This document shows, piece by piece, positions 3,667 through 46,003 of a DNA stretch of 46,003 nucleotides. Every line of letters begins with the position of its first letter. Position 1 is the first letter of the stretch. A program made the translations under genes and the position numbers. The DNA is from a virus. A model generated the notes under the pieces. That model had not been told where the DNA came from. It ran no database searches and was given only the letters and a program-made list of their open reading frames with translations. The stretch lies in the IMG/VR virus record IMGVR_UViG_3300021178_000422, positions 1-46,003 of that record. The stretch is one strand, 5' to 3'.

Positions 3667-3725
3667 ATGTACGGGTTTATGTTGTTGCCTTGTAAATATG
3701 TCGCACAACACAGATTGCGCGACAG

Positions 3726-4205
3726 TCACTTGATAAATGCGACCCAATGCGTCTTCGAGCGATAGCCAGAGGTATGCCCGAAGAGCGGCTTGTGTGGCGT
3801 TAGGGCAAGAATGTCCTTCAAAGGAATCTCGATCTCGCTCCATTTGAAGATTAGTACGCCATCCGGTTTAAGGACGCGGAAGCACTCCGCGAAGCCCCGT
3901 TGGAGGTCATCGCGCCAGGTTCGCTTGTCGAGGACGCCATACTTGATCGCCATGTAGCTATTCGAATTTGCGCGCTTCAGGTGAGGTGGGTCGAACACGA
4001 CGAGAGGGAAATGATTGCTCGGAAGGTCGAGCTGGCGGAAGTCCATAATCCGGTCGGGTGCTACACCGAACGTCTGGCGATTAGGCAATCGTTCCGGTGG
4101 TCGGTTCCTGTTGTCGAGGAAGAGTGCGTCTGGGTGCTTCTTATCGAACCAGAACATGCGGCCGCCGCAGCACACGTCGAGCACACGCCTAGTTGGTACC
4201 TCCAT
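3726..4205 (-). CDS. SAM-dependent DNA methyltransferase-like protein (159 aa)
   Basis: The N-terminus carries a SAM-binding motif I-like stretch (VLDVCCGGRMFW). Later DFRQLDLP and VVFDPPHLKR follow, where DPPH is the motif IV typical of amino-methylating DNA enzymes. GVLIFKWSE lies after it. At 159 residues it is a minimal catalytic domain without an obvious target-recognition domain, as often seen in phage orphan methylases. It may protect phage DNA or modify a regulatory site. The first 17 nt overlap the preceding HTH gene, so the ATG at 4205 or a nearby GTG could be the start. RNA or protein methylation cannot be excluded. Confidence 0.75.
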   Translation of the reverse strand: MEVPTRRVLDVCCGGRMFWFDKKHPDALFLDNRNRPPERLPNRQTFGVAPDRIMDFRQLDLPSNHFPLVVFDPPHLKRANSNSYMAIKYGVLDKRTWRDDLQRGFAECFRVLKPDGVLIFKWSEIEIPLKDILALTPHKPLFGHTSGYRSKTHWVAFIK

Positions 4206-7619: not shown

Positions 7620-8858
7620 CTACCAGATGCTCGACCTTTGCTGCGGGTGTGGAATAAGCATCTTCTCAACATCTTTGCGTGAGCGGCTGAAGCTCGCGCG
7701 CGTGTTCTTAATGGCCGATTTCAAATGTCCAGTGGGTAGGTCAACCTTCCGAGTCGTCATCCTGTGCGCATCGGTCGGCATTCCCCCCTCCAATAACCGA
7801 ACCCACGCCTCCCCCCTTCCCATGTCCTTCAAGTCCTGCTCGGGCGCATCAATCGCGCGTGAGATGATCGGTGCATCCGCTGCCCCCACGCGGAACGAAA
7901 CGATAGTCCCACAGTTCCCCAGGATGGCATGTTGCAGTTCCTCTGGAAGCTGGGAAATGAATTGGTGAGCAAGGCTAAGCGAGAGCCGCCATTTGCGGGC
8001 TTCGGAGAGAATGCGACCGAAAGCGAGTGAAGCGAAGTTCTGAAATTCGTCCACATATAGCGTGTAGTCCTTGCGCAGCCCCTCGGCCTGGCTTGACCGT
8101 GCTTCGGCGGCGCGGGCGAAAGAGGAAACGAGCAGGGCGCCGAGGAGGCGCGCGGGCTCGTCGCCCATGTCGGATAGGTCAACGACAAGGGAGGTTCCGC
8201 TGTCCATGAGCTTGCGGATGTTGATGGTGCTCGTGGGCTGGCCGATGACGTAGCGAAGTGGCAAAGGATCTGCGAGCGCCGCTACCTTGTTCTGCAGCGA
8301 GGCGATTTCGATGGTTTGGTCTTTGTCGGATTTGGCGGTAAACTCAGTCCATGTCTGGCGGGTTTCTCTGTCTCCGCACTTTCGCAAAAGTTTGCTCCTG
8401 TAATTGTCATCGGAAAGGACACGCCGAATATCGAGAAGGGTGGTGCAAGGCGTGTCGAGCAGCAAGCGGACTGCGGCGCGCAAGTAGTAAAGCAAACGTG
8501 GCGTCTCCGGCCCCAGTTTCCATATATCCGAGAAAATAGAAACGATGTCGGCAGTAACGCGCCATCGGTCGTCCGGCGGCACATTCTCGAGCGGGTTCAA
8601 TCCGACAATGTGGGAGAGGTCGGCGGGTTTCCAGTAAAGGTGCGGAACCGGTGAGCTATCCGAGATCGCTTTGGCGGCGTCGCCGTGCTTGTCGATAAAG
8701 CAGAAGCCGCGGCGCGTCGCAAAGTCCTGGGCCATGAGTGAAAGCAGCCAGGTGGTTTTGCCCGTCCCGGTTTGGCCGATGGCATAAAGATGCTGTCTCC
8801 GGTCAACATCCGAAAGTTCGACCGGATCGCCTGTCGTTGTGTAGTTGCCGAGAATCAT
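7620..8858 (-). CDS. VirD4/TraD-like (T4SS coupling-protein family) ATPase, 412 aa
   Basis: The N-terminal QHLYAIGQTGTGKTT places Walker A at residues 28-35. CFIDKHGDAAK at residues 52-62 matches the (V)DPHGD motif of conjugation-type DNA pumps. LGLNP-like VGLNPLE follows near 84-90. Walker B is LYVDEF at 266-271 (D269, E270), and an LAHQ sensor lies near 295-298. It lacks the N-terminal transmembrane anchor of canonical VirD4/TraD, so it should be soluble. The family forms hexamers that move DNA. In the window it stands alone on the minus strand, not beside secretion-channel genes. It could load DNA, act in replication or segregation, or serve an unknown transfer process. Confidence 0.8.
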   Translation of the reverse strand: MILGNYTTTGDPVELSDVDRRQHLYAIGQTGTGKTTWLLSLMAQDFATRRGFCFIDKHGDAAKAISDSSPVPHLYWKPADLSHIVGLNPLENVPPDDRWRVTADIVSIFSDIWKLGPETPRLLYYLRAAVRLLLDTPCTTLLDIRRVLSDDNYRSKLLRKCGDRETRQTWTEFTAKSDKDQTIEIASLQNKVAALADPLPLRYVIGQPTSTINIRKLMDSGTSLVVDLSDMGDEPARLLGALLVSSFARAAEARSSQAEGLRKDYTLYVDEFQNFASLAFGRILSEARKWRLSLSLAHQFISQLPEELQHAILGNCGTIVSFRVGAADAPIISRAIDAPEQDLKDMGRGEAWVRLLEGGMPTDAHRMTTRKVDLPTGHLKSAIKNTRASFSRSRKDVEKMLIPHPQQRSSIW

Positions 8859-28537: not shown

Positions 28538-29470
28538 TTATGCGACTGCGGTCTTGATGAGGTATGCCGCCGATGCAGCGATGATGTTCTCATCGTAGTA
28601 GAAGTTGCCGACGCGGATGTAGGTGCCCTTGCGGTCCTCTTCGTCCGTGCCGCGCATACGCTCTACCTGCATTTGCTCCCACGTGTAGGTGAGACCGAGT
28701 GTGATCATCTTCGGCTGGACCTTCGGCGCGATGTACGCGAGGAAGGCGTCCTTGCCCCAGATGTACGACATGCTGTCCGTCTGGCCTTCGGTCGCCGTGT
28801 TCTTGCCTGCCTGGCCGACGAGAATGCGGTCAACCTCGAAGATGCGGGCCATGAGGTCGGCGGTCATCACTCCGAGCTGCGAATACTTTACGCGCTCCAA
28901 GAATGCCGGGTGGTCGATGAGCTTGTCCCAGACCTGACGGCCCATGACGAGCGTATTCGGGTTCTTGTGGATGGCCGCGTGGATCGTCTGCTTGCCCGTT
29001 CGGATGTCCTTGATAGGGTCCGAGTTCGAGAAGTCGCTCCACTGCGACGTGCCTGAAAGCGTCGTGTTCTGCGTAAGGTTCGAGGTCGAGGTCAGCATCG
29101 CTGCCGTCTCGATCTCGCGATTGACAAAGTGAAGGTCGGTAACATTCTCCGTCGCGTCCTGGAACGGATCGGTCGGAGTAATGGCGTTCTTCACGTCTTC
29201 GTCCGGGACGAACTGCTTGAGTGCGTGGTCCTCACAGAAGTACGGAAGGCCGGTGGTCAGCTTGAGCGTTACTTCGTTCGAGGGTGAGCCGGTTCCGCGC
29301 TTGTTCGGCACGTTGCGGAAGCGTCCGCGGTCGTAGATGAAGTGCTTTCCCGATTGCTTGGCGACGGGAAACGTCGGCAGAAGCTGCTCGGCGATGTAGT
29401 CATCGTTTGTGTAGCCGATGGCGACATTGGTCAGCATCGGGTCTACGCCGAGATATTGGTTTGTTGACAT
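28538..29470 (-). CDS. major capsid protein (E-like, 310 aa)
   Basis: Starts with NQYLGVDPMLTNVAIGY, then LLPTFPVAKQSGKHFIYDRG and a central KQTIHAAIHKNPNTLVMG, followed by VWDKLIDHPAFLERVKYS. This is the pattern of the HK97-fold major capsid family in which a spine helix and the 'nt.vmg..v...l..hp' segment are conserved. It forms the icosahedral shell. Preceded by the small decoration protein and the I-like protease/scaffold gene, which is the canonical order. Confidence 0.8.
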   Translation of the reverse strand: MSTNQYLGVDPMLTNVAIGYTNDDYIAEQLLPTFPVAKQSGKHFIYDRGRFRNVPNKRGTGSPSNEVTLKLTTGLPYFCEDHALKQFVPDEDVKNAITPTDPFQDATENVTDLHFVNREIETAAMLTSTSNLTQNTTLSGTSQWSDFSNSDPIKDIRTGKQTIHAAIHKNPNTLVMGRQVWDKLIDHPAFLERVKYSQLGVMTADLMARIFEVDRILVGQAGKNTATEGQTDSMSYIWGKDAFLAYIAPKVQPKMITLGLTYTWEQMQVERMRGTDEEDRKGTYIRVGNFYYDENIIAASAAYLIKTAVA

Positions 29471-31458: not shown

Positions 31459-31634
31459 TTTCGCCAAGTGTCGGTAAGTGTCTGCATATGCCGCTCGTAG
31501 ACGCGGCGACTGATGCCAATGTCGGCCCCGTGATAGCACGGACGGTCGTACCGTATATCGCATCTCACGTTTTCGTCGGTGCCATTGAATGCTCTGCCGC
31601 ACACGTCACACTCGTAGGAATTTATCGGGTCCAT
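31455..31634 (-). CDS. small zinc-finger protein (59 aa)
   Basis: The ATG overlaps the portal stop as TGATG (31632-31636), a strong sign of coupled translation. MDPINSYECDVCGRAF has a CxxC pair, and further cysteines (VRCDIRYDRPC) complete a likely zinc site. The tail RRVYERHMQTLTDTW is helical. The gene is the last before the inverted plus-strand gene, with a 4-nt overlap of stops. Role unknown. Confidence 0.6.
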   Translation of the reverse strand: MDPINSYECDVCGRAFNGTDENVRCDIRYDRPCYHGADIGISRRVYERHMQTLTDTWRN

Positions 31635-33886
31635 CAATTTTGTGCGCGTCTATCGGCCTCAGCACGCGCGGGCGTGTTCGCTTTCGTGATTGGCTTGGGT
31701 GGCTGCACAAGATCGTTGACGGAGTTTCCAAACCGGCTTCGAAGCGACTGCGGCACTCCGGTGATGTCCGGCTTCTCGGCCTCGTCATTGAGGATGGCGA
31801 CCCAGATGCCGCGGCAATTGCTGTGGAATATGTCAGTGGCGGCAAGGTCATCATCCATGCTCACGATCCGCTCATCCATCGAAAGGCAGAAACCGCATGT
31901 GCGACTGTCGAGGATTTCACTGCGTTGCAAGGCGTAGATGTCTTTCGCATTGTTGGCAAAGACGGTATTGCGTCCCTGATTGATATACGCGGACATGAGG
32001 ACCGATGACGCATCGCCGGTAACCGTATCGATCGTCTCTCCGGCGGCCGCATCGGCCTCTCCGAGCGCGGTGGTGAGCGACGAACCCGTATTGAGCGCGT
32101 TGACATAGGCGATCTTGCTGTCGGCTTCGATGCGCGCGATCTGATGCGCGGCAATGGCGTCAGCCTGGATGTCGATCTGCCTCAGCATTTCGATGGGGTT
32201 CGGCGGGGCTGCGACATTGATTTCCTTGGCGGCATTGTTCTTGCCGTACAGGAAGGCCGCAGTCATGGCTTGCTTGATGATGCGTGCGAGATCGGCTTGT
32301 ACTTTCAGGGTGGCGTCCTTGATGCCTTTGGCGTCGCCTGCGTGAGCTGCCTTGGTGAAGGCCGCCATATAGGTGTCGCGCGCACCGTGGAGGAGTTCTC
32401 GTGTCTTCGCGTCAAAGTCAGCTTCGAGCTGATCCATCTGCTTTTGCAGGCCGTCGAAGTTCACCTTCTGCTCTGCGAACGTGAGCTTGCGCCACGGCTT
32501 AAATGTGCCGGTGGCTTCCGAGGCTCGCCGCTCGCGATAGGCTTTTTTTTTAGGGTCCGGCTCGGTGGTGGGGTCGGTTACATTCTGCTCTTGCGCAGGG
32601 GGGACGATCGGCGGTTCATCCGGATCGCGCTCGGGCAAACCGAGCACCTCGCGGAAGAACTGCTCGTCGTTTTTGCCAGCTTGGAGACCGCCGGATGTAA
32701 TGAGCGTTGCGTAGGCCGTGGACAATTGCAGTCCGTCGGTCTCGCTGAGGCCGGTAAAGGCCAACTTCGGATAATTCTGGACACCATCATAGTTCAGATC
32801 GACAAGCTCCTTGATTGCTGCATTGAACGCGTCTGTGATCTGAGTTGCCACGGCTTCAAGCGAATTCAGGAAAAGCTTTGAATGGTCTTGCGAAAGCGCG
32901 CGACTGCCGCTTGCCGTTGCACCCCTGTTCGATGCCCCAAGCTGAAGAAATTGTGCGAGGACGGAGATCAATATCTGCCGGTCGTGATGCGCGATCGACT
33001 GGCTTGGATCGCGCGTCGTGTGGGACATCATGTCCTTGAAACCGAAATCGTAGTCATACGGCTCAATGATGAACGCATGCGAGTTCGCGCGCAGGTTCTT
33101 CAGGATCGTCTCGGCCTTGCCGCGGTCGCCCTCCGTATAACCTTCCGGGAGCTTCACATACGGAATGCCCAAGCCCTGACGCTCATGTGCAATAGCGTCG
33201 ATCTTGTAGAGATTATTCTTGAGGAACCAGTGTTTGTATGCGGGTCGGAGTATAGACGTGCCCCACCAGTTCATGCCCTCCATCTCGTTGACGATGACGA
33301 CAAGCTTCTCCATCGGAATCTCTGCCATGCTGCCATCGCTGCGGAATTGCGTGATACCGTCGGCATTATCGCCGCCAATGGCCCAGCGGTAAATTGAGCG
33401 CGGCATGCGCGGTGCAAACTTGTCCCACACGATGCACGTCTTGCCATTGCAATTGCGCGTGGTGAATACTTTCTCGAACACCATGACGCCGAACGGCAAA
33501 CACATAAGTGCTTGGCGCAGCACATCGTCCCATCCGAGTGATGGGTACTCGAAGAGTGCGGCGGCCACGAAGTCCGAAATGTCGTTGTCCGCAGCATCTT
33601 CGCTCGCAGGCTCGACATACCAGTCAGCGCTGCGTATCGGGAGCGAGCACGCGAGCACGGCAGCGCGACATGTACCGTCGCTCTTGCGCATTTCATCGAA
33701 GACATCGAGGCCTGCGCGGTCGCGGAGCTTTGGATTGTACTCTTCGCGGATGATGCCTGAGAGAATGCGCGTGCCGGTGTCGCCGATCTCCAAGCCCTTC
33801 GTAGCCTTGGATCGATTGGCAGTGCGCTTAGGTGGAGTCTTTTTGGGAGCAGCAGGATCGGTATGCCCGATCTTCTTTTGTGCCAT
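31634..33886 (-). CDS. portal protein fused to MuF-like head protein (750 aa)
   Basis: Residues ~40-420 match the Mu gp29/DUF935-type portal (ICVFEKV-like VFEKVFTTRNCNGK, STSILRPAY-type WWGTSILRPAYKHWFLKN, AHERQGLGIPYVKL, ISVLAQFLQLG). The C-terminal third (~550-720) carries the MuF signature ILDSRTCGFCLSMDERI with FHSNCRGIW. A linker and a helical region lie between. Portals normally form the dodecameric DNA gate, and MuF proteins enter the head as separate products; here one polypeptide carries both. A single continuous frame, so it is not a sequencing fusion by stop loss. Confidence 0.82.
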   Translation of the reverse strand: MAQKKIGHTDPAAPKKTPPKRTANRSKATKGLEIGDTGTRILSGIIREEYNPKLRDRAGLDVFDEMRKSDGTCRAAVLACSLPIRSADWYVEPASEDAADNDISDFVAAALFEYPSLGWDDVLRQALMCLPFGVMVFEKVFTTRNCNGKTCIVWDKFAPRMPRSIYRWAIGGDNADGITQFRSDGSMAEIPMEKLVVIVNEMEGMNWWGTSILRPAYKHWFLKNNLYKIDAIAHERQGLGIPYVKLPEGYTEGDRGKAETILKNLRANSHAFIIEPYDYDFGFKDMMSHTTRDPSQSIAHHDRQILISVLAQFLQLGASNRGATASGSRALSQDHSKLFLNSLEAVATQITDAFNAAIKELVDLNYDGVQNYPKLAFTGLSETDGLQLSTAYATLITSGGLQAGKNDEQFFREVLGLPERDPDEPPIVPPAQEQNVTDPTTEPDPKKKAYRERRASEATGTFKPWRKLTFAEQKVNFDGLQKQMDQLEADFDAKTRELLHGARDTYMAAFTKAAHAGDAKGIKDATLKVQADLARIIKQAMTAAFLYGKNNAAKEINVAAPPNPIEMLRQIDIQADAIAAHQIARIEADSKIAYVNALNTGSSLTTALGEADAAAGETIDTVTGDASSVLMSAYINQGRNTVFANNAKDIYALQRSEILDSRTCGFCLSMDERIVSMDDDLAATDIFHSNCRGIWVAILNDEAEKPDITGVPQSLRSRFGNSVNDLVQPPKPITKANTPARAEADRRAQN

Positions 33887-34258: not shown

Positions 34259-35923
34259 TTAGAACCGCTCGTCCAGCAATCCACCTGTAACTGTGCTGTG
34301 CGCCGCGCCACGCTTGGGTGTTTCAGCTTTCGGAAGCGTGCTCGCGATTTTGCCGAGCGGCCATCGGCGCAGGGCGAGCATCTTCGCATCCGGGCAGTGG
34401 TCGTCTTCTTTGAGCGGCTTATCGGACCCTTCCTGATACCGATACCGTTTGTGCTGCCAGATCGCTTCCTTGAACCAGCGCGGGATGCGTTGTAGTCGGC
34501 GTTGGAAATAGGCGCGGTAGTTGCCGAGCATCATCTCCTTCTCGGTGCCGAGCTTGCGGTTCACGTCGCGTTTCTTGTCCTCGCGCCCGTCCTTTTCCGC
34601 GATCTGCACCGGACGGCCGAACGGCACCTCGATGACCGTGCAGCGGAATTGCTCCTTCTCGGGCAATTCATTGATCTTCTTGATGATCGCGGCGCGCAAT
34701 GCTGCGTTCTCGAACGGATGCGACGCGTCCGCGTGGATCGTTCGGATGCGATACTTCACCACGTCCTCGGCGATTTCAGCGCAGACGACCTCGGCCAGTA
34801 CCTGCGTGTAGATGCGGCATTCGAGCTGCACTTTGACGTTGTTCAGGTGCGCCATCTCCACGTCCCAGACGGTCATGCCTGAGAAGCCCCAGTCGATGCC
34901 GCCGGCGCATTCAGCGCCCGGGCGATAGGCATAGTCGCCGAAATCGTCGATCACGCATGCGTCCACGTCCTCGGGGTCGTTGACCATGCCTTCGGCCCTC
35001 GGGCGGGAGCCCATGAACTCGACATCGAAGTAGTCGACGCTGGATTTCTCACGCCACGCCTGAATGATGTTGTCTATCGGTATCCAGCCTTCCGGATCGC
35101 CCAGGCGGCCGGCCGCGCGCGCTTCAAGCGATCGCCCTCCGGCCTGTAGGATCGTGAGGTCGGGAATCTCCCGCAGGAGCCGCTCGTCTTTCCAGATGTC
35201 GGGACTGAACTGCGCGCATACGTCGAAGCTGTCCCATGAGAGACGGACCCAGCCAAGCTCCCCTGCGCGGTCCCACGTTTCCTGAAAGAATCCGAATATC
35301 TTGTGGAACGTAGATGTCATCACCACGAGCGAATTGTCGGACGTGTTCACCATCGGCATCGCGTCGAGAATGAGCTGGTCCTTCGTCTCGCACGCCTCGT
35401 CGATGAAGAGGTTGTCCGGGTGCGGGCCGCGCACGGCTTTCGGTGAGGCGGCGACGGCTTTGAAGTAGTTGCCTTTGTCGCTCTCTGTCTTGTGCATCGT
35501 CGGCTCGTCCGGGAGCGCGCCGACGATCGCAGGCTGCGTGTAGATGTGGCCGACGAAGTAATTGTAGACACCCTGCGCCTGTTGGAGCGAGCCGCCCATG
35601 TCAACGATGCTCAAGAGCTGCAGAAACCATTTCACGAACCCGAGCGCGCCGAGGATTTTCGATTTGCCACCACCGCGCGGGCCTTTGATGATGAAACGCG
35701 TTGCGGGCCGGCCCTGTTGATCCTGCCGCAGCCAAATGAGCGCGAAGATGTGGCGGAGTTTCTTCGGGAAGCGCATCGACGGGTCGATAAAGCGCAGAAG
35801 CTGTATCGGCTTCGTGCCGAACCGGCGCCTGATGTCGTCCGGGCTACCGAGAGCCGCCGCTTTGAGGCGCGCCAGCGCTTCGTGAAAGCTCGGCCTCTTC
35901 GATGAGGCTCTTGATGATTCCAT
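34259..35923 (-). CDS. terL: terminase large subunit (554 aa)
   Basis: ATPase: Walker A GPRGGGKS at residues 81-88, Walker B NLFIDEA with D175/E176, and coupling motif VMTST at 201-205. Nuclease domain: GGIDWGFSG (D344), HADASHP (D399) and EDDHCPDAK (D507/D511), the RNase H-like acidic triad. It packages DNA through the portal and cuts it. The start at 35923 overlaps the small-subunit gene by 80 nt, which is long; a later start is possible but would trim the N-terminal adaptor region. No ribosome-binding site was seen. Confidence 0.92.
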   Translation of the reverse strand: MESSRASSKRPSFHEALARLKAAALGSPDDIRRRFGTKPIQLLRFIDPSMRFPKKLRHIFALIWLRQDQQGRPATRFIIKGPRGGGKSKILGALGFVKWFLQLLSIVDMGGSLQQAQGVYNYFVGHIYTQPAIVGALPDEPTMHKTESDKGNYFKAVAASPKAVRGPHPDNLFIDEACETKDQLILDAMPMVNTSDNSLVVMTSTFHKIFGFFQETWDRAGELGWVRLSWDSFDVCAQFSPDIWKDERLLREIPDLTILQAGGRSLEARAAGRLGDPEGWIPIDNIIQAWREKSSVDYFDVEFMGSRPRAEGMVNDPEDVDACVIDDFGDYAYRPGAECAGGIDWGFSGMTVWDVEMAHLNNVKVQLECRIYTQVLAEVVCAEIAEDVVKYRIRTIHADASHPFENAALRAAIIKKINELPEKEQFRCTVIEVPFGRPVQIAEKDGREDKKRDVNRKLGTEKEMMLGNYRAYFQRRLQRIPRWFKEAIWQHKRYRYQEGSDKPLKEDDHCPDAKMLALRRWPLGKIASTLPKAETPKRGAAHSTVTGGLLDERF

Positions 35924-38210: not shown

Positions 38211-38405
38211 CTAGTCGTCGAACAAGAGAGGGTTGGCGTACCTGTCGCTCGCGTTGGTTTGCGTGCTTGGGCGCCGGTCGTCTCTTAGGTCGAAGAGAGT
38301 TTCTTGCTGCGGCTGTCGCGCCGCTTTTTGTTGCTCTCGGCGAAGTTTTAGTAACTCCGCCCAGAGATACCGTTTGCCCCCCACTTCGACGTACTTGAGC
38401 CTCAT
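38211..38405 (-). CDS. hypothetical protein (64 aa), last gene of primase operon
   Basis: ATGA overlap with the upstream DUF3768 gene (38402-38405). The N-terminus RLKYVEVGGKRYLWAELLKL is a small beta-hairpin plus helix, then a glutamine/arginine-rich coil. No family was recognised. The downstream terminator is about 110 bp away. Confidence 0.55.
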   Translation of the reverse strand: MRLKYVEVGGKRYLWAELLKLRREQQKAARQPQQETLFDLRDDRRPSTQTNASDRYANPLLFDD

Positions 38406-38758
38406 TCGTCAGGCGTCCTTTCGTCCGCAAACCTGACGGTGAGGACGCGCTGAGTAACAGCAGGATCTGTCGCGTCGTCGGAGTAGGAGTTAGGGTCGTC
38501 CAAGCTCAGATAGTCGATCAGTGCGACGATGCTGCAGCCCCGGTAGTCGAGCGCGAGATAGGCGTGCTCGTTCTCGGGGTCCCACTGTTCGTTCGGCTCG
38601 AATGCGTCGAAGTTCCTGATGCGCCAGAGGATGTCCGATTTTAGCTCGGCATCGAGCGCCTCGAAGCGAGGGCTGACGATGATGGCGCCGCCGATAAACG
38701 TTCGTCTGAACGCATCGTTTAAGGAGCGTAGACGTTCGAGGAAGGCCTCTCTTTCCAT
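38402..38758 (-). CDS. DUF3768 protein (118 aa)
   Basis: LRSLNDAFRRTFIGGAIIVS followed by an IRNFDAFEP-type helix and ALDYRGCSIVALIDYL matches the alphaproteobacterial DUF3768 family. It is one of two paralogues here (the other at 39150-39482), only distantly similar to each other. The function of the family is unknown. Confidence 0.7.
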   Translation of the reverse strand: MEREAFLERLRSLNDAFRRTFIGGAIIVSPRFEALDAELKSDILWRIRNFDAFEPNEQWDPENEHAYLALDYRGCSIVALIDYLSLDDPNSYSDDATDPAVTQRVLTVRFADERTPDE

Positions 38759-39482: not shown

Positions 39483-39589
39483 GTCTCAGCGACCTGGGCC
39501 ATGAACGGAATACGGATTACCGGTGCTTGAAGGCAGCGGGACCAGGCGTATTTGCAGCGAGGACACCTGAACCAGTAAACGTTTTCCAT
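39416..39589 (-). CDS. zinc-ribbon protein (57 aa)
   Basis: MENVYWFRCPRCKYAW and ETCPKCKQTH provide two CxxC knuckles about 30 residues apart, a typical zinc ribbon. The start at 39589 is chosen at the first conserved segment; an ATG at 39610 is in frame. The 3' end overlaps the DUF3768 gene in another frame. It could be a transcriptional or replication accessory. Confidence 0.6.
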   Translation of the reverse strand: MENVYWFRCPRCKYAWSRCLQAPVIRIPFMAQVAETCPKCKQTHVKPYDETPTFDAP

Positions 39590-39635
39590 CGCCGCAGAAT
39601 GATTACCCAATGCGTAGAGTCAAAGGTCGCTATAC

Positions 39636-39663
39636 AAAACAGTGCGGCGCTCTGAGGCGCCGC
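39636..39663 (-). terminator. hairpin downstream of the primase gene
   Basis: GCGGCGC (39644-39650) / GCGCCGC (39657-39663) with a 6-nt loop. On the minus strand it is followed by ACTGTTTTG. A moderate terminator or attenuator between the primase and the zinc-ribbon gene. Confidence 0.5.
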
Positions 39664-39674
39664 GAGGAACTATG

Positions 39675-40265
39675 TTACGCTGGTTTTTTTTCGAGCTTCA
39701 CCACGTTCCAGTTAGGAAGCTTCCACTGAGGCGGCAGCTTGGCGATTTCGGTCAGGCCGATGTAGCCCACGAGCTCGCCGGTCTCGAGACGGATCGGCAC
39801 GGCCACCAAGCCGCGCATGATGCCCTTACAGGCATAGCCGATGCCGAGCGCCTGCGCGGTCTCTGCATCGAAGCCCAAGGTCTCGACTGCCGGGTGCTCG
39901 TGCTCCAGGTAGTCGAGCGGTTTAAGGCCGTCGCCGGGAGCTTCTGCGGGCTTCTGGTGAGTTTTCGGGTTTCTTTCGGGTTGGTCTACCCCGAAGTGCC
40001 GCGCGATCTCCTCGGCCGCCTCACGCTGTCCTGTGCGCCGGATGTGGGCGCACAAGCCGATGCAGTCCCCTCCATGGGAATCGGCGAAGCAATAGTAGGA
40101 CCCACGCGAGAGGTTGACCGCGAGCGCCCGGTCGCCTCCCTTGCGGCAGGCGGGGCAAGCAGAGCGGAGCTGGTCGTTGCCCTTCATGCGTAAGCCCAAC
40201 ATTTGGACCACTTGGCCGATTTTGATCTGCTCCTTGATGAGCGCGAAATCTAGAAACGTCGGCAT
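39675..40265 (-). CDS. truncated CHC2-type DNA primase (196 aa)
   Basis: A strong ribosome-binding site (AAAGGAG) precedes the ATG at 40265. The zinc module is visible as SACPAC (C37, C40) and YYCFADSHGGDCIGL (C59, C68). An N-terminal subdomain follows (PLDYLEHEHPAVETLGFD, AVPIRLETGELVGYIGL), the usual entry into the DnaG-like core. The acidic TOPRIM catalytic residues are absent, and the protein ends soon after, so it is probably a zinc/fold fragment or a regulator rather than a full primase. No replicative helicase or polymerase gene was found nearby. Confidence 0.75.
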   Translation of the reverse strand: MPTFLDFALIKEQIKIGQVVQMLGLRMKGNDQLRSACPACRKGGDRALAVNLSRGSYYCFADSHGGDCIGLCAHIRRTGQREAAEEIARHFGVDQPERNPKTHQKPAEAPGDGLKPLDYLEHEHPAVETLGFDAETAQALGIGYACKGIMRGLVAVPIRLETGELVGYIGLTEIAKLPPQWKLPNWNVVKLEKKPA

Positions 40266-40312
40266 GGCTATCTCCTTTCCTGTTGAGATCTGCCGACCCC
40301 TAATCGTATCAC

Positions 40313-40606
40313 CTATCCGTAGACGTACCTGGCCGGCGATGTGCGCCCTGCTTCAATGCCATGAAATGTTCCTTCGCATGTGCAAGCGCAATTATTCCCC
40401 TCACCGTAGAGACAACGAACGTCGTTACAGAACTGATATCGGGTAGGACGGTAGCTATGGAGATTCATGCGTTCGCCGCAGTGAAGTGGCAGAATGTGGG
40501 AAATGCCCTCACGCGAGTCTCCGCGCAATTCCTCCAGTTCGTTTTTGCTTGTGTTGCGATGAAAGCCGCATGCTCTACATCGCAACTCCAATTGGTATTT
40601 GCTCAT
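40313..40606 (-). CDS. zinc-binding hypothetical protein (97 aa)
   Basis: Cysteines in ELRCRACGF, LPLHCGERM, FCNDVRC and CACTCEGTFHGI suggest two zinc sites. The CxCxCxGxxHGI ending recalls a small rhizobial protein motif. It is the first gene of the leftward primase operon. The start is preceded by a strong hairpin instead of a ribosome-binding site. Confidence 0.6.
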   Translation of the reverse strand: MSKYQLELRCRACGFHRNTSKNELEELRGDSREGISHILPLHCGERMNLHSYRPTRYQFCNDVRCLYGEGNNCACTCEGTFHGIEAGRTSPARYVYG

Positions 40607-40613
40607 ATCGTCT

Positions 40614-40657
40614 GCACGATACGGACGCCCGCTTGGCAGAAGGCGTCCACATCGTGC
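40614..40657 (-). promoter_or_regulatory. 5'-UTR hairpin at the start of the primase operon
   Basis: GCACGAT (40614-40620) pairs with ATCGTGC (40651-40657), and GGACGCC (40623-40629) with GGCGTCC (40642-40648). A symmetric AC/AC internal loop separates the two helices; 14 bp pair in total. It ends 7 nt before the ATG at 40606, where a ribosome-binding site would normally be. Control of translation initiation is inferred. Confidence 0.55.
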
Positions 40658-40665
40658 GCCAAGCT

Positions 40666-40711
40666 TATAATGAGAACATTATAGCACGTGATACCATGCT
40701 CTGAGAGCATC
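40666..40711. promoter_or_regulatory. promoter-like palindromes upstream of the primase operon
   Basis: TATAATG-AGAA-CATTATA (40666-40683) is a perfect inverted repeat offering TATAAT on both strands. ATGCTCTGAGAGCAT (40697-40711) is a second perfect palindrome. The minus-strand TATAAT fits the start of the 40606 gene; the -35 is weak. Likely an operator-controlled promoter. Confidence 0.5.
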
Positions 40712-40975
40712 GAACGTGGATGGGGGAAATGCTGGCTCGGCTACAGCGCGGTTGGGGTAATAGCTGATCCCAAAACAACCGTTTCCCCACCCGCGTTCGA
40801 TTTGCACATTCAAAGAGTTGGAGTGTGGGTGGGGGTAGCGAACATCAAGATAGCTACCAAAACCTCGCCGGAGCCGGTGTCGCTCACTGCGTTCAGGCTT
40901 GATTGGGGATTGCGGTTTCGTCCGTCTTCCCCACCCCCACTGCAACAAGAGTGCGGGGAGAAAGGAGTCATGCAA
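40679..40975 (-). CDS. uncertain hypothetical frame in the regulatory gap (98 aa)
   Basis: A frame from 40975 to TAA at 40679-40681, with a protein-like second half (YLDVRYPHPHSNSLNVQIE, GWGNGCFGISYYPNRAVAE). It overlaps the start of the plus-strand gene and a 20-bp hairpin, and it has no ribosome-binding site. Parts of the apparent peptide pattern come from the repeated GTGGGTGGGG motif. It may be a gene or structured DNA only. Confidence 0.3.
   Translation of the reverse strand: MHDSFLPALLLQWGWGRRTKPQSPIKPERSERHRLRRGFGSYLDVRYPHPHSNSLNVQIERGWGNGCFGISYYPNRAVAEPAFPPSTFDALRAWYHVL
40709..40801. repeat. 20-bp imperfect hairpin with GTGGGTGGGG motifs
   Basis: 40709-40729 pairs with 40782-40801 over 20 bases, with one G-T pair, one mismatch and one bulge, around a 52-nt loop. 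Related G-rich motifs recur at about 40826-40836 and inverted at 40930-40939. It fills the gap between the leftward operon and the gene at 40975. A replication or transfer origin is one possibility. Confidence 0.5.
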
Positions 40976-41229
40976 TGAGCATGACAGACACTACCTCGCG
41001 TACGACGCGTCGGGGACAGCAGCCTGAGAAACGCGAGATCGCGTTCTACGTCCGGGCCAAAACGGGAGCTGGGCCGCGCGACTGGTCGCCAATCGGTGTC
41101 GCCTTCCACCGGCGCAACGGAGACGGCTTCACGATGAAGCTGAATACGCTGCCGATTTCCGGCTGGAACGGGGCGTGCGTGCTTGTCCCGCCCTTCGTGC
41201 AGGACGGCGACGAAATCCCCGAAGAATAA
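40975..41229 (+). CDS. small conserved hypothetical protein (84 aa)
   Basis: AAAGGAG (40961-40967) precedes the ATG at 40975. The core reads KREIAFYVRAKTGAG, then DWSPIGVAFHRRNGDGFTMK and LNTLPISGWNGACVLVPP. This resembles a small rhizobial accessory-region protein family seen from memory near plasmid and phage genes. A strong plus-strand terminator follows 16 nt later. Function unknown. Confidence 0.7.
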   Translation: MSMTDTTSRTTRRGQQPEKREIAFYVRAKTGAGPRDWSPIGVAFHRRNGDGFTMKLNTLPISGWNGACVLVPPFVQDGDEIPEE

Positions 41230-41245
41230 CATCGCGTGCTTCCTG

Positions 41246-41269
41246 GGGCGGCCCCGTGCCGCCCTTTTT
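41246..41269 (+). terminator. rho-independent terminator (plus strand)
   Basis: GGGCGGC (41246-41252), 5-nt loop CCCGT, GCCGCCC (41258-41264), then TTTTT. It separates the convergent genes at 40975 and 41271. Confidence 0.88.
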
Positions 41270-41270
41270 C

Positions 41271-42257
41271 TTATGAGAGGATCTGAAACGGTGGATGCCC
41301 GACACGGTGCCACGGATCTGAAACCATGTGCCCGGTCGGTGATGGCTTCTCGTACGACCCCGGCGCGGGTTGATTTTTGAATAAGAGAAATTGCGCGGCG
41401 TTCTCGGTAACCTCGCCCGCGCGTACCATTCCCTCTAAGTGCTTCATTGCCGAATTCATCTCCTGCACCGTCGTGAAGATGAATGGGACGTAGTAGCGGC
41501 GAAAGCCAAAGTATGAACGATAGACCTTGCCCTCGATAATAGATGCGTGGGTGAAAAACTTGCGGCGTAGCGATTGCGCATTGAAGTCGCGCGTGGCGCG
41601 CCGCTTGCGCGAGTACTCGATCTCGACACCTGGAAAGAAGATGTATGTGCCGTTCTTCGTGAGCTCTAAGCCGAACGGATAATCGTCCGCCGTAACCTTC
41701 ACGTCCTTTGAGCCGTGCACGCGAACGGTAACCGGAATTGAATGGCTGTGCTTGACGGCCTCCCTTGCCTCGGCTGAGAGGTTTGGAGATGTGCGGATCG
41801 TAGACCACGGGACGAAGCGCAGCTCGTCCGACCGTTCCTTCGCTGCGAGACGAAATGATGCCATCGCCTGGTAGACCATGATCTGGTGATCGAAGCTGCC
41901 CTGGTATGGGCCGGTCTCTACGTCGACGTGGCGAGCTTCAAGCCTCTCTTTGCCCCGATCTGCCAGTTCGTAGTAGAGCGGCCAATTCTGGTAGGCGCGC
42001 GGGTTATCGCGCTGCTCGTCTGCGACTTGAACGTACAGGTTGGGCTTGCGCTTGAGGACCTTGAAGCGATCCGTAACGTAGTCGGCGCTCGTGCCGGCGA
42101 ACGCTGCGATGTAGGGCGCGGTAAGAAACCGATGGGAAGCGAGCGCCTCCATCATCCGGTCGTCGAGGGGCGTCGGACGCCAAATGGCGATCGGCTCGCC
42201 ATCTCTCAGGATGGGATCGGTACCGAATCGTGAAAGACGTTTGCGGGAACCCTCCAT
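41271..42257 (-). CDS. replication-relaxation-like winged-helix protein (328 aa)
   Basis: The N-terminal PLDDRMMEALASHRFLTAPY, with the following AAFAG and RFKVLKRKPNLYV and then ADRGKERLEAR, forms a winged helix. In the Replic_Relax family (PF13814) this is followed by a beta/alpha domain with a conserved DH (FDHQIMVYQAMASFRLAAKE). Members occur on plasmids and conjugative elements and are linked to plasmid replication or DNA relaxation. It is encoded about 95 nt downstream of the VirD4-like ATPase, so the two are probably cotranscribed. A loading or specificity factor for the ATPase is an inference. Family assignment is from remembered pattern. Confidence 0.65.
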   Translation of the reverse strand: MEGSRKRLSRFGTDPILRDGEPIAIWRPTPLDDRMMEALASHRFLTAPYIAAFAGTSADYVTDRFKVLKRKPNLYVQVADEQRDNPRAYQNWPLYYELADRGKERLEARHVDVETGPYQGSFDHQIMVYQAMASFRLAAKERSDELRFVPWSTIRTSPNLSAEAREAVKHSHSIPVTVRVHGSKDVKVTADDYPFGLELTKNGTYIFFPGVEIEYSRKRRATRDFNAQSLRRKFFTHASIIEGKVYRSYFGFRRYYVPFIFTTVQEMNSAMKHLEGMVRAGEVTENAAQFLLFKNQPAPGSYEKPSPTGHMVSDPWHRVGHPPFQILS

Positions 42258-42351
42258 AGATCAAGAAATAAACGAAATGAAAAATTGAAACAAAGGTCGG
42301 TATGCAAAGCGGCGAGGAGCTATAAGCGGCTCTGCGCCAGTATGTTCAAGT

Positions 42352-44391
42352 CTACCATTTTTCAGGCGACTCATTTTCCACTGCGGCCGGGGGCGTGGAT
42401 TTCGGGGGACGTGGTAGAATAGGGTCTACAACCCCTGTCGCTTCGGTGGCAGGGCGCGAGGCCCCTGCTAGCGGGGCTTCTGCTTTGTGCGTTTCTGCAC
42501 TGAGCCTCTGAGCGTTGATGTCTAGAAACTTCTGTAGCTGTCCGTCGGTCATTTGGGGTTGCGCTTCGACATTGCCGAGCGGAACGTGAATGGACATCGG
42601 ATGGTCAACGACGTTTCGCGCGAAACAGGCGAAATTGACGTGAGTGGGTGTAACCTTGCGAGCCGTGATGAACTGCGAGTCGCAGTGCATGTCCCGAGTT
42701 ATGTAAGTCAAATCTTGCGCTTCCACAGATGCGGCGTATTTGATGGATGTATTGGTCGATAGTTGATTACGCAGGCCGTCGGTAAAGGGCTTGTCGTGTA
42801 ATATCTGAGTGGCCATAACGATGCCGAGATTATATTCCCGTGCGAGCCTGAGCATCTGAGGGGTTTTTATTTCGTCGGCGTATTCCTGGAACTCGTCGAT
42901 GATAAGGAATGCGGGCGGCCACGGGGCTTTGAGGGCCACACGTGCAAAGGCGGCATTGAGGGTGGTGGCTATGAAGTACCGGCCAAGCAGCGCAGAGGCT
43001 CTATCGCCAAGGAGAGTGCTGTTGGTGTTGACGAGAATAATCTTCCCTTCGTTGATCGCCTCAATGAGGTTAATAGCATTATGTGTTGCTGAGAGAGCGG
43101 CGATAAAGACAGGATGTTGAAGCACCATGTAGAGGCGGGCCTTGATTTGTCCTTTCGATTCCTTGAACTCCGTAAAGAACTCGTTGCGAAAGAAGCGCTG
43201 TGCCATCGGGTGTAGCCGCTCGACATATGCGCGAAAAGCAAATGTTTCGAGGTTCTTTGCCGGATCGTCGAGAATATCAAGGAGGGTTTCAACATTCGCG
43301 TTGTCGATCTCGTACATCAGGCGAACGACATACCCAAAATCAATCTGCTGCTTTTCGGTGAGCTTGAAGCCCGCGGCCGAGAAGATATAACCGAATAGTT
43401 CTATGAGTTGGTTTTCAACCTGCATCCGCATTTGAGGCGACCACATGTGAAATCGCCGTGTGCCGGGGTCGAACATATTGAGGGCGGGTGGCGGGTCGAT
43501 GGTCGGGTCAACGACTATTATTCGGTCTTTCAAGCGGCCGTTATCGGGGTTAAATACGGCAAGGCGCTGAAGGCGTTTAATCATCAGACCTTTTGGGTCT
43601 AAAACGACCATTGCGGGAGGATTGGGCTTTGCGAGGTCATCTAAAATGATCTGCTGCAAAAGCGTGGTTTTTCCCGCTCCCGATCCGCCAACAATGAGCG
43701 TGTGTTCAAAGCGTGTGCGTTCAGGTATCGGCACGACGGCGCCGAGGCGGTCTTGGTCTAATAGCTGATTGTCCAACTCCGCTTGCTCGCGCTGGGCGTC
43801 CAGTGCTTCTTGTTCTTCCTTCTTTTTTAGGGCGTTACGTTTCAACTCGTATTTTATCTCGATATAACGGAGTTCGCTCCGCTCGCGAGCTTCTCGGATT
43901 TCCCTGTTGAGCTGCCGGTCGGCTTCTTTTTTCGCTTCTTCACGCGCTTCGCGTGCTGCATGAAAGATGCATTTTTTGAGCCAAGCGCTGATCTCTTGCT
44001 CGGCCTTTACGGGAGCTTCCGCTTTCTCTCGTCTCCATTTCTCAATCTGCTCTGAAGTTTCCCGCCTGTATTTTTCCTCCATCTTTCTAGAGGCCTGGCC
44101 AGGCATAAGTGAAGCGATATACTTTAATCCGACAATGCCTGGATAGTCATTGACGTCGCCATTGGCCCGCAGTGATGGTTCTTTAATTACCGCTTGGATA
44201 ACTTTTTCGTAGCATGCGGAAGAACAAAACATCTCAGAAGGATAAATTGTTAGATCGGTTTCGGTAACGCTTTCATTAAGCCACCACCATGCTCGCGATA
44301 GGTCGCGGTCCAACGGAGCCCGGCAGAGTAAGTTGCAGCAAGCATTGGGGAGGAAAGTAAGGGGGACTGGTAAGCCGAAGAAATAGAGCAT
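42352..44391 (-). CDS. VirD4-like ATPase with N-terminal zinc and coiled-coil region (679 aa)
   Basis: From ATG 44391: a hydrophobic start (LYFFGLPVPLTFLP) and a cysteine module (NACCNLLC ... MFCSSACYE) that probably binds zinc. A long charged coiled coil follows to about residue 220. Then comes the ATPase: Walker A GGSGAGKT (about 235-242), LDPKGLMI, VVDPTIDPP, LNMFDPG, Walker B FLIIDEFQ (about 495-502) and ATQILHDKP. This is the T4SS coupling-protein fold. The TTG/GTG starts 13-14 codons upstream are possible. The coiled coil could tether a partner. It is placed right next to the excisionase and integrase. No mating-channel genes are present in the window. Confidence 0.8.
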   Translation of the reverse strand: MLYFFGLPVPLTFLPNACCNLLCRAPLDRDLSRAWWWLNESVTETDLTIYPSEMFCSSACYEKVIQAVIKEPSLRANGDVNDYPGIVGLKYIASLMPGQASRKMEEKYRRETSEQIEKWRREKAEAPVKAEQEISAWLKKCIFHAAREAREEAKKEADRQLNREIREARERSELRYIEIKYELKRNALKKKEEQEALDAQREQAELDNQLLDQDRLGAVVPIPERTRFEHTLIVGGSGAGKTTLLQQIILDDLAKPNPPAMVVLDPKGLMIKRLQRLAVFNPDNGRLKDRIIVVDPTIDPPPALNMFDPGTRRFHMWSPQMRMQVENQLIELFGYIFSAAGFKLTEKQQIDFGYVVRLMYEIDNANVETLLDILDDPAKNLETFAFRAYVERLHPMAQRFFRNEFFTEFKESKGQIKARLYMVLQHPVFIAALSATHNAINLIEAINEGKIILVNTNSTLLGDRASALLGRYFIATTLNAAFARVALKAPWPPAFLIIDEFQEYADEIKTPQMLRLAREYNLGIVMATQILHDKPFTDGLRNQLSTNTSIKYAASVEAQDLTYITRDMHCDSQFITARKVTPTHVNFACFARNVVDHPMSIHVPLGNVEAQPQMTDGQLQKFLDINAQRLSAETHKAEAPLAGASRPATEATGVVDPILPRPPKSTPPAAVENESPEKW

Positions 44392-44453
44392 AAGCGCGAT
44401 CCAAGAGAGATGGGGCGGCCCAGTGGCCACCAAGCCGCCCCGAGGTCTACCGA

Positions 44454-44705
44454 TCAGAAGACGTATTCGACATCTTCAGGAACCGGCACGCCATGCCGCT
44501 TGAAGTAGTCAAGGACTTGCGGGGTGTACCAGACGGGATGCGCGTTCCTGTGCGTGCCGAGCTTCCCGCGAAGCGGAAATGGATCATGCGCGTACTCGGG
44601 CTCGAGCATCATTCGCCATGTTTGCGCCCTGCTATAAGGCCAGCCAATGACATCCTTCAACTTACGCCAATCGACGTAGAGCGGTAGCTTCACCTTCCGT
44701 TGCAT
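44454..44705 (-). CDS. AlpA/Xis-like DNA-binding protein (83 aa)
   Basis: A winged-helix-like protein with VDWRKLKDVIGWPYSRAQTW and an HPVWYTPQVLDYFKRHG end. This is the pattern of AlpA/excisionase-type proteins encoded beside tyrosine integrases. GGAG at an 8-nt distance serves as ribosome-binding site for the ATG at 44705, but it lies in a hairpin. It is 137 nt downstream of the integrase gene. Likely role: directing excision or activating other genes. Confidence 0.7.
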   Translation of the reverse strand: MQRKVKLPLYVDWRKLKDVIGWPYSRAQTWRMMLEPEYAHDPFPLRGKLGTHRNAHPVWYTPQVLDYFKRHGVPVPEDVEYVF

Positions 44706-44712
44706 CGAAGCA

Positions 44713-44729
44713 TCTCCGTGATGCGGAGA
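44713..44729 (-). promoter_or_regulatory. hairpin covering the Xis ribosome-binding site
   Basis: TCTCCG (44713-44718) and CGGAGA (44724-44729) form a 6-bp stem with a 5-nt loop. Read on the minus strand, the 3' arm contains the GGAG that serves the ATG at 44705. Translation of the Xis-like protein may therefore be held low unless the hairpin opens. Confidence 0.5.
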
Positions 44730-44824
44730 CGCCGCGACGCTCCTAGGGTTAAGCCACTAGCAGCGCCGAAATCCTATGCGGCGTGGTGGGGAATCGCAAG
44801 TTGCACATAGCGCCCCGTAGCCCC

Positions 44825-44857
44825 AAAAAAGAAAGCCCGCGCTTAAGCGGCGCGGGC
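44825..44857 (-). terminator. rho-independent terminator of the integrase gene
   Basis: GCCCGCGC (44835-44842) / GCGCGGGC (44850-44857), with a 7-nt loop containing the integrase stop codon. On the minus strand it is followed by TTTCTTTTTT. It ends the integrase transcript before the Xis-like gene. Confidence 0.88.
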
Positions 44858-46003
44858 CGGGGCGGTATGAGCCGCCAGTAAGTGGGTCAGGTACGCTTCC
44901 CACTTTTCGAGGGCCGCGCGCTTTTCATCGAGGAATTCGTAGAGATTGTAAATCTCATCGAGGTCATTGAGGTTCTCGCCGCTGACGTGATTAAGCAGAC
45001 GCTCAGCGACTTCGCGCGCAACACCAAGCTTCGGCAGGGCGCTGCGGAAAGTCCGACGGATATCACGGATCTGCCACTTTTGCACGCCCGATAGCTTGTC
45101 CAACTCACGCTTTTTCTTGCCCCATGATCCATCAGCGAAGTGGGTATCAGCGTCCCAGCGGCCGGGGAAAAAGAAGTCGGAGTTGGTGGTCTGCTCGGCG
45201 AGCACGGCGCGCGCCATCGGCAAGAGCGGGGTGGCGTGGTCGCGGTGGTTTTTGGTGAAGTCTCCGGGGATCGTCATCACGCCGTCGGCAATCCATGTGC
45301 GCCGCGACCGGGCCACCTCCCCGCTCCGGGCTCCCCAGAGGAAAAGCAGGCGGACCATGCCGCCGAACATTCCCATCTGTAGCGAAGCTGCCCAGACCTG
45401 AACGATTTCCGTTTCGGAGAGGATACGCTTGCCCTTTCGATCCTTGGATGGGGCGTCGTAGCCTTCTAACGGGCTGTGGCTGATGTAGCGGCGGGGCGGC
45501 TTGGTGCACCACCGGAGCATCTTTCGAATCGCACGGAAGGCATGGAGCTGCTCGCTCGGCACGTCGGAGAGCTTATCGAGCTGCCTGCCGACGTCCTTGT
45601 CCGTTATGTCCGACAACAGGGTCGTACGGAGAGCGGGTAGGAAGTGCTTCTCCAAGAGCCGCTTGGCTTCGCTTTTCGAGCGGGGCCGGCGGCCCTTGTA
45701 GTTATCTTCGAGAAAGAGAGGCAGAGCCTCGCCAAAGGTGATGGTCGAGGCGGCGGCCTTCTCGATACCGAGGGTCTTCTCCGCGAGGATGCGTTTGGCT
45801 TCGACGCGAGCGTCGGAAAGGGTGATGATGCCGACTTTTCCGATGGTCCGACGCTTGCCGCTTCCAACCATGACGATGAAGGTCTTAGCGCCTCCATCTG
45901 AGACGCGTACGCCGAGGGGACTGGCTTTGTCCCACACGGTATATTGGCCGGCATCGGGCGGAGTGAGCGCGCGAATGCCAACGTCTGTGAGGTTTACTTT
46001 CAT
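44843..46003 (-). CDS. int: tyrosine site-specific integrase (386 aa)
   Basis: The N-terminal DUF4102-like part (ALTPPDAGQYTVWDKASPLG) and core-binding domain lead to the catalytic domain. Visible are R226 (WGARSGEV), K251 (FTKNH), the box II region QIRDIRRTFR with R316, H339 (LLNHVSG) and Y355 (IYNLYEF). The usual first histidine of box II (HxxR) is replaced by R313, a substitution found in some alphaproteobacterial integrases. The enzyme inserts and excises the element at an att site not seen here. The window ends exactly at its start codon, so its promoter lies outside. Confidence 0.93.
   Translation of the reverse strand: MKVNLTDVGIRALTPPDAGQYTVWDKASPLGVRVSDGGAKTFIVMVGSGKRRTIGKVGIITLSDARVEAKRILAEKTLGIEKAAASTITFGEALPLFLEDNYKGRRPRSKSEAKRLLEKHFLPALRTTLLSDITDKDVGRQLDKLSDVPSEQLHAFRAIRKMLRWCTKPPRRYISHSPLEGYDAPSKDRKGKRILSETEIVQVWAASLQMGMFGGMVRLLFLWGARSGEVARSRRTWIADGVMTIPGDFTKNHRDHATPLLPMARAVLAEQTTNSDFFFPGRWDADTHFADGSWGKKKRELDKLSGVQKWQIRDIRRTFRSALPKLGVAREVAERLLNHVSGENLNDLDEIYNLYEFLDEKRAALEKWEAYLTHLLAAHTAPARAA

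Follow-up and report, generated by a model that had tools for sequence, protein, structure and literature searches.

A relaxase-like protein and a VirD4-like ATPase encoded side by side next to the integrase of a temperate tailed phage lineage: a candidate mobilization module

In enterococcal plasmids of the pAD1 type, including the MOBC-typed pTEF1, which we take to be pAD1-like, a gene for a coupling ATPase is followed on the same strand by one for a relaxase (TraX in pAD1). The MOBC relaxase TraX consists of a winged helix and a restriction-enzyme fold (PMC12857230), and the replication-relaxation family PF13814 serves as a marker for MOBC relaxases (PMC5357655; PMC11104534). CloDF13 is described as mobilizable, encoding a coupling protein (MobB) and a MOBC relaxase (MobC) of its own and no pore; the coupling protein does not work when its membrane domain is removed (PMC7431656). 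Streptococcal integrative and mobilizable elements likewise combine an integrase with a MOBC-type PF13814 relaxase (PMC5357655). Among tailed phages, the Tyroviruses have a gene for a type IV secretion protein adjacent to one for a replication-relaxation protein, and a tyrosine recombinase adjoins the two; the authors suggested acquisition from a conjugative plasmid and proposed a plasmid-prophage life (PMC9703825). In the Bacillus phages vB_BhaS-171 and PM1 an FtsK/SpoIIIE-like gene is followed by a replication-relaxation gene annotated 'replication initiation', and in vB_BhaS-171 a recombinase again adjoins the pair. Finally, HerA-nuclease systems (HerA-NurA, DUF4297-HerA, SIR2-HerA), which are hexameric, combine an ATPase of the FtsK/HerA superfamily with a nuclease partner.

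The DNA analyzed here, referred to as the window, comprises positions 1-46,003 of IMG/VR virus record IMGVR_UViG_3300021178_000422 (46,003 nt). The names ATPase1, RR, and ATPase2 denote the products of 42352-44391, 41271-42257, and 7620-8858, respectively; L and G numbers are our labels for loci and contigs of relatives. The features needed below are as follows.

7620..8858, minus strand: ATPase2, a second ATPase (~400 aa) of the same superfamily, at the opposite end of the record (TraG-D_C, 2.8e-5)
28538..29470, minus strand: major capsid protein (phrog_1005, 7.3e-89)
31634..33886, minus strand: portal (Portal_Mu, 6e-48)
34259..35923, minus strand: terminase large subunit, which defines the phage lineage (phrog_2, 1e-20)
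38402..38758, minus strand: DUF3768 protein, common to the islands (PF12599, 4.1e-12; island homologues)
39675..40265, minus strand: CHC2 zinc-finger primase-like protein, a recurrent neighbor (PF01807, 1.4e-7; relatives in phages)
41271..42257, minus strand: RR, predicted winged helix plus PD-(D/E)XK-like domain, Replic_Relax/MOBC-like (sub-threshold PF13814 match, invariant residues, structural model)
42287..42304, minus strand: weak copy of the gap motif of relatives (8.0 bits, shuffle P about 0.015)
42352..44391, minus strand: ATPase1, FtsK/HerA/VirD4-superfamily ATPase with a coupling-protein fold (PF10412, Walker A and B, TrwB structural match)
44412..44441, no strand: inverted repeat (I14) between the Xis-like gene and ATPase1 (15-nt arms, 80%)
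44454..44705, minus strand: Xis-like small gene (position; homologues beside int in G001 and G308)
44843..46003, minus strand: tyrosine integrase, int (Arm-DNA-bind_3, 4.4e-8; phrog_1, 1.1e-41)

The window is a tailed phage, because profile searches recognized genes for a terminase, a Mu-type portal, a protease, a major capsid protein, and a tape measure protein. Since these structural genes are present, it is not an integrative mobilizable element (integrase and mobilization genes without pore or virion), unlike the streptococcal elements, which have no virion genes. The order int, Xis-like gene, ATPase1, RR occupies the right end of the window, all on the minus strand, with 94 nt between ATPase1 and RR. 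The 83-aa Xis-like protein had no Pfam match in the profile search; a homologue lies between int and the ATPase gene in G001, and the G308 prophage has another (59% identical). About half of the loci encode a relative of ATPase2 no more than 10 kb from ATPase1. In the G141 prophage the ATPase2 relative is at the far end, as in the window; being at the end opposite int, ATPase2 would lie on the int side in the excised circle, near the order seen in islands. At the left end of the window, positions 1885-3843 encode a 652-aa protein, the third ATPase of this superfamily in the window, which matches phrog_2666 and, weakly, HerA-type defense models.

ATPase1 has 679 residues when read from the ATG at 44391; a TTG at 44433 is a possible alternative start. 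It matches TrwB_AAD_bind (PF10412) at 1.6e-7, above the curated cut-off, and the Walker A (G236, G238, G240-K241) and Walker B (D499-E500) residues are invariant in an alignment of 42 sequences. The AlphaFold model has a mean pLDDT of 75, exceeding 90 across most of the ATPase core, and a structure search with it returned TrwB first (E 7.6e-10) and HerA-NurA a close second (6.9e-9). Because these values are close, membership of the FtsK/HerA/VirD4 superfamily is secure, and the model favors, but does not prove, the coupling-protein (TrwB/VirD4) branch. ATPase1 thus has the FtsK/HerA-superfamily ATPase domain, Walker motifs, and predicted fold expected of a coupling protein, and the preliminary description of this locus was right to place a VirD4-like ATPase beside RR, Xis, and Int. 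Its cysteine module fared less well. The N-terminal cysteines exist (C32, C33, C37, C70, and C74, numbered from the TTG start), but similar spacing occurs in few relatives and model confidence over this region is low, so a zinc module is unproven; as a family feature it was rejected. A long helix is predicted with low confidence at residues 126-191. Searching viral contigs with the ATPase1 sequence alone found no relative; an alignment was required as query.

The RR protein scored 21.7 bits (2.3e-4) against Replic_Relax (PF13814), below the cut-off of 25.3. Its place in the family is transitive: window RR finds the viral relative L007 at 3.6e-29, and a Sulfitobacter protein that matches PF13814 at 1.8e-16 finds the same L007 gene at 2.5e-14. 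A match value of 9e-65 comes from a profile that includes the window sequence itself. A tblastn search of phages and plasmids with window RR found nothing. The RR model (pLDDT 88.5) had as its best structural match the restriction enzyme MunI (probability 0.98, E 1.4e-3, low TM-score) and also matched many winged-helix proteins, again with low TM-scores. RR is thus modeled as a winged helix followed by a C-terminal nuclease domain of the restriction-endonuclease, PD-(D/E)XK-type fold; the description of RR as a winged-helix replication-relaxation protein agrees with the model as to the winged helix and is supported as to the family by the transitive link, but missed the nuclease fold.

The putative active site of RR is intact. 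H124, D191, and E212 are invariant in 49 relatives and E214 is present, and the Asp...Glu-x-Glu residues align with D152, E170, and E172 of the relaxase-family protein of pTEF1, numbers that we take to be those of the catalytic residues reported for TraX. The whole-profile match to the pTEF1 protein is weak (hhalign E 0.0045), so that the aligned residues and the fold, not the score, carry the argument for a relaxase. In gene order, winged helix, and restriction-endonuclease-like catalytic residues the pair therefore resembles that of pAD1-type plasmids. On the other hand, pTEF1 has further conjugation genes adjacent and an ATPase N-terminus that is, by eye, strongly hydrophobic, whereas the window is a tailed phage. 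The order ATPase then RR in a tailed phage, with a recombinase adjoining, is that of vB_BhaS-171 and Tyrovirus gp17-gp18; PM1 shares the gene order. Since these phages carry comparable pairs, the pair was already known in phages, contrary to the preliminary description, which knew it from conjugative plasmids and not from phages. The PM1 and vB_BhaS-171 proteins are much shorter, and the hosts differ. What is new here is the fold, the active-site reading, the conservation of the slot, and the anchor pattern in this lineage, together with the occurrence of the backbone in integrase islands.

The two genes are strongly associated. Among 297 genomes of the Rhodoplanes family, RR was present in 29 and the ATPase in 27, with both in 26 (Fisher 6e-33). 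In an ATPase-defined sample, RR lay directly downstream, within 1.2 kb, of 29 of 38 ATPase genes, bearing out the pairing proposed in the preliminary description; in some exceptions (G082, G051) RR is on the same contig but several kilobases distant. Because scoring in the Rhodoplanes-family sample was limited to three ATPase candidates per genome, the figure of 21 RR genes with no neighboring ATPase is an upper bound. When genome contigs were searched with the ATPase, most short-type loci had RR directly downstream on the same strand. A fused type, comprising 19 ATPases of about 840-970 aa, lacks RR. Alignment showed that these share a C-terminal domain with the motifs G-x-[VI]-DV and E-[IV]-S-[VI]-T, which from its sequence looks like a PD-(D/E)XK-type domain although the usual lysine is absent. 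Separately, in L076 (1-2721) a long open frame begins as an ATPase and ends as an RR domain, while the central part of the ATPase is read in a different frame; either the genes have fused and a frameshift has occurred, or the assembly is wrong. In the Actinobacterial loci L081-L084, L086, and L089 the genes for the ATPase, RR, and a DNA methyltransferase are consecutive; a serine recombinase gene lies a few kilobases further along, and type I restriction genes are in the vicinity.

In the phage lineage the pair has a fixed place. The relatives defined by the terminase are L142, L144, L145, and a prophage in G308, and all four, whose early regions are readable, keep the pair in the same slot beside int, with the CHC2 gene next and terminase and portal after it; L143 was too short to be counted. 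The ATPases of the window, L142, L144, and G308 are nevertheless not one clade (AU p 5e-34): in the ATPase tree, G308 groups with G001, and the window with L099 and L107. Thus, the slot is kept while the alleles change, and the constancy of position suggests that the pair does work for the virus and is not simply carried along. L099 and L107 could themselves be prophage remnants, so that the donors may be islands or may be other phages. Phages with other structural genes (G001, G003, and G141) also have the pair; G141 (L101) is a prophage, not an island.

The same backbone occurs in integrase islands in which no phage genes were detected. In G105, two nearby regions each contain an integrase, DUF3768, a second ATPase, a small gene, the ATPase, and RR; one of the integrases is 63% identical to that of the window, and no phage structural genes were recognized in the stretch read. 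Islands of this kind fit the definition of an integrative mobilizable element better than the window does. A tblastn search of the cellular loci with the window's TerL, portal, capsid, protease, and tape measure proteins, which misses structural genes of other phage types such as G141, matched G308 alone.

With respect to a membrane anchor the window departs from CloDF13, whose MobB needs its membrane domain. In a plain hydropathy scan of 50 loci with a small gene upstream of the ATPase, 22 had a strong hydrophobic segment on the ATPase and 12 had one on the small protein; no locus had both. Anchors were present in 33/34 short-type and 1/16 fused-type loci, a difference whose P value (1e-10) overstates independence because locus classes follow clades. 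In RR-type loci the membrane segment is thus in cis (on the ATPase) or in trans (on the upstream small protein), never both. Rhodobacterales ATPases have a clear N-terminal membrane segment; in others it is on the upstream protein, and in the phages G001, G308, L142, and G141 the protein encoded just before the ATPase has a C-terminal hydrophobic segment. The scan found no clear anchor in the window, L144, or G003; the N-terminus of window ATPase1 is weakly hydrophobic (1.71).

A conserved DNA motif near these genes, suggested as a check in the preliminary description, was found in relatives, though the window copy is weak. Where the ATPase-RR gap is about 95-130 nt, a common motif lies mostly 50-70 nt after the ATPase stop codon (10.5 bits versus at most 8.2 in 12 shuffled sets, which were searched from fewer random starts than the real set). 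Matches with high scores are present elsewhere too, and in several loci a GTTTACA-like -35 with a downstream -10 fits the motif by eye. The motif may therefore be a promoter or operator, or a nick region; because a promoter fits as well and matches occur elsewhere, an oriT reading was not kept alone. No convincing direct repeats of the TraX-binding kind were seen in 39500-46003.

The DNA-processing module proposed in the preliminary description remains the best reading. In its specific form, which we advance tentatively and rate just short of an even chance, the pair would be a mobilization module of a MOBC-type relaxase and a coupling protein that is a standard part of this temperate tailed phage lineage and related integrase islands. 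Int and Xis would first excise the phage genome; the winged helix of RR would bind an origin-like site, where its PD-(D/E)XK domain would nick; an ATPase hexamer would take the RR-DNA complex; a membrane segment on the ATPase or its upstream partner, where present, would dock the complex at the inner membrane; and a co-resident conjugation pore would move the DNA. No pore genes were found near the pair in a scan of the Actinobacterial loci or on reading the gene lists of the Proteobacterial ones. In favor of mobilization are the TrwB-like ATPase model, the TraX-like architecture and aligned residues of RR, the two-way co-occurrence, the constant slot beside int, and the distribution of anchors. 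Several points weigh against it: the window, L144, and G003 have no clear anchor, HerA structures are close, RR is replaced in the 19 fused-type loci, and a phage that makes virions would not obviously need conjugation. In a broader version, which we rate as rather unlikely, the module is a core slot that lets excised prophages of Alphaproteobacterial temperate tailed phages be mobilized by a co-resident conjugation system, adding spread by cell contact to spread by virion, with alleles exchanged among phages and capsid-less islands that share the backbone. Were the module to function as it does in plasmids, the phages and islands with this backbone would form a continuum from prophage to mobilizable element, and the phage annotation 'replication-relaxation' would mean DNA mobilization. 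The finding opens to experiment the question of whether conjugation is a second route of spread for a temperate tailed phage.

Alternatively, the pair might serve replication or maintenance of the excised phage: RR would initiate by nicking or by binding the origin, the ATPase would serve as a translocase or drive partition, the CHC2 protein would prime, and conjugation would play no part. This would agree with the CHC2 gene that follows RR in phages, the 'replication initiation' annotation in the Bacillus phages, and the plasmid-prophage life proposed for Tyroviruses (PMC9703825), and no replication initiator or replicative helicase was recognized among the window genes scanned, although that scan covered part of the ORFs. 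We consider it unlikely, as integrase islands keep the pair without phage genes and neither a coupling-protein fold nor membrane segments are needed for replication.

About equally unlikely is a role in superinfection exclusion or defense, in which a membrane-near ATPase and a nuclease would recognize and cut incoming DNA, as in HerA-nuclease systems. ATPase1 does match PADLOC mad8 (2.1e-19), HerA defense complexes are among its structural matches, the Actinobacterial loci lie near type I restriction genes, the fused class has an alternative C-terminal domain, and allele turnover in a fixed slot would be typical of immunity genes. RR, however, has no match at E 0.01 in PADLOC-DB (2.0.0), so that the partners do not match components of one system there; TrwB is a better structural match to the ATPase than HerA; and RR has a predicted winged helix and is linked transitively to the relaxase family PF13814, whose members act as relaxases in conjugative plasmids (PMC5357655; PMC12857230). 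Should replication or immunity prove to be the function, a widely distributed, poorly named gene pair would be reassigned. That the pair is a plasmid- or island-derived passenger with no function for the phage, as the integrase, DUF3768, both ATPases, and RR shared with islands and the plasmid origin claimed in Tyroviruses (PMC9703825) might suggest, is very unlikely given the intact catalytic residues, the single slot in five related phage genomes despite ATPase alleles that are not one clade, and the presence of the pair in phages with other structural genes.

Two further records bear on the range of contexts. G002 (L095, L096), which IMG/VR lists as 'viral' (34 kb) and which comes from a Phaeobacter genome, has two copies of the small ATPase and two integrase-like genes and may be an island rather than a virus. 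L005 (Microcystis phage Mwe-JY31; 22 kb, 18 genes) carries a diverged ATPase-RR pair together with a ParA-like gene.
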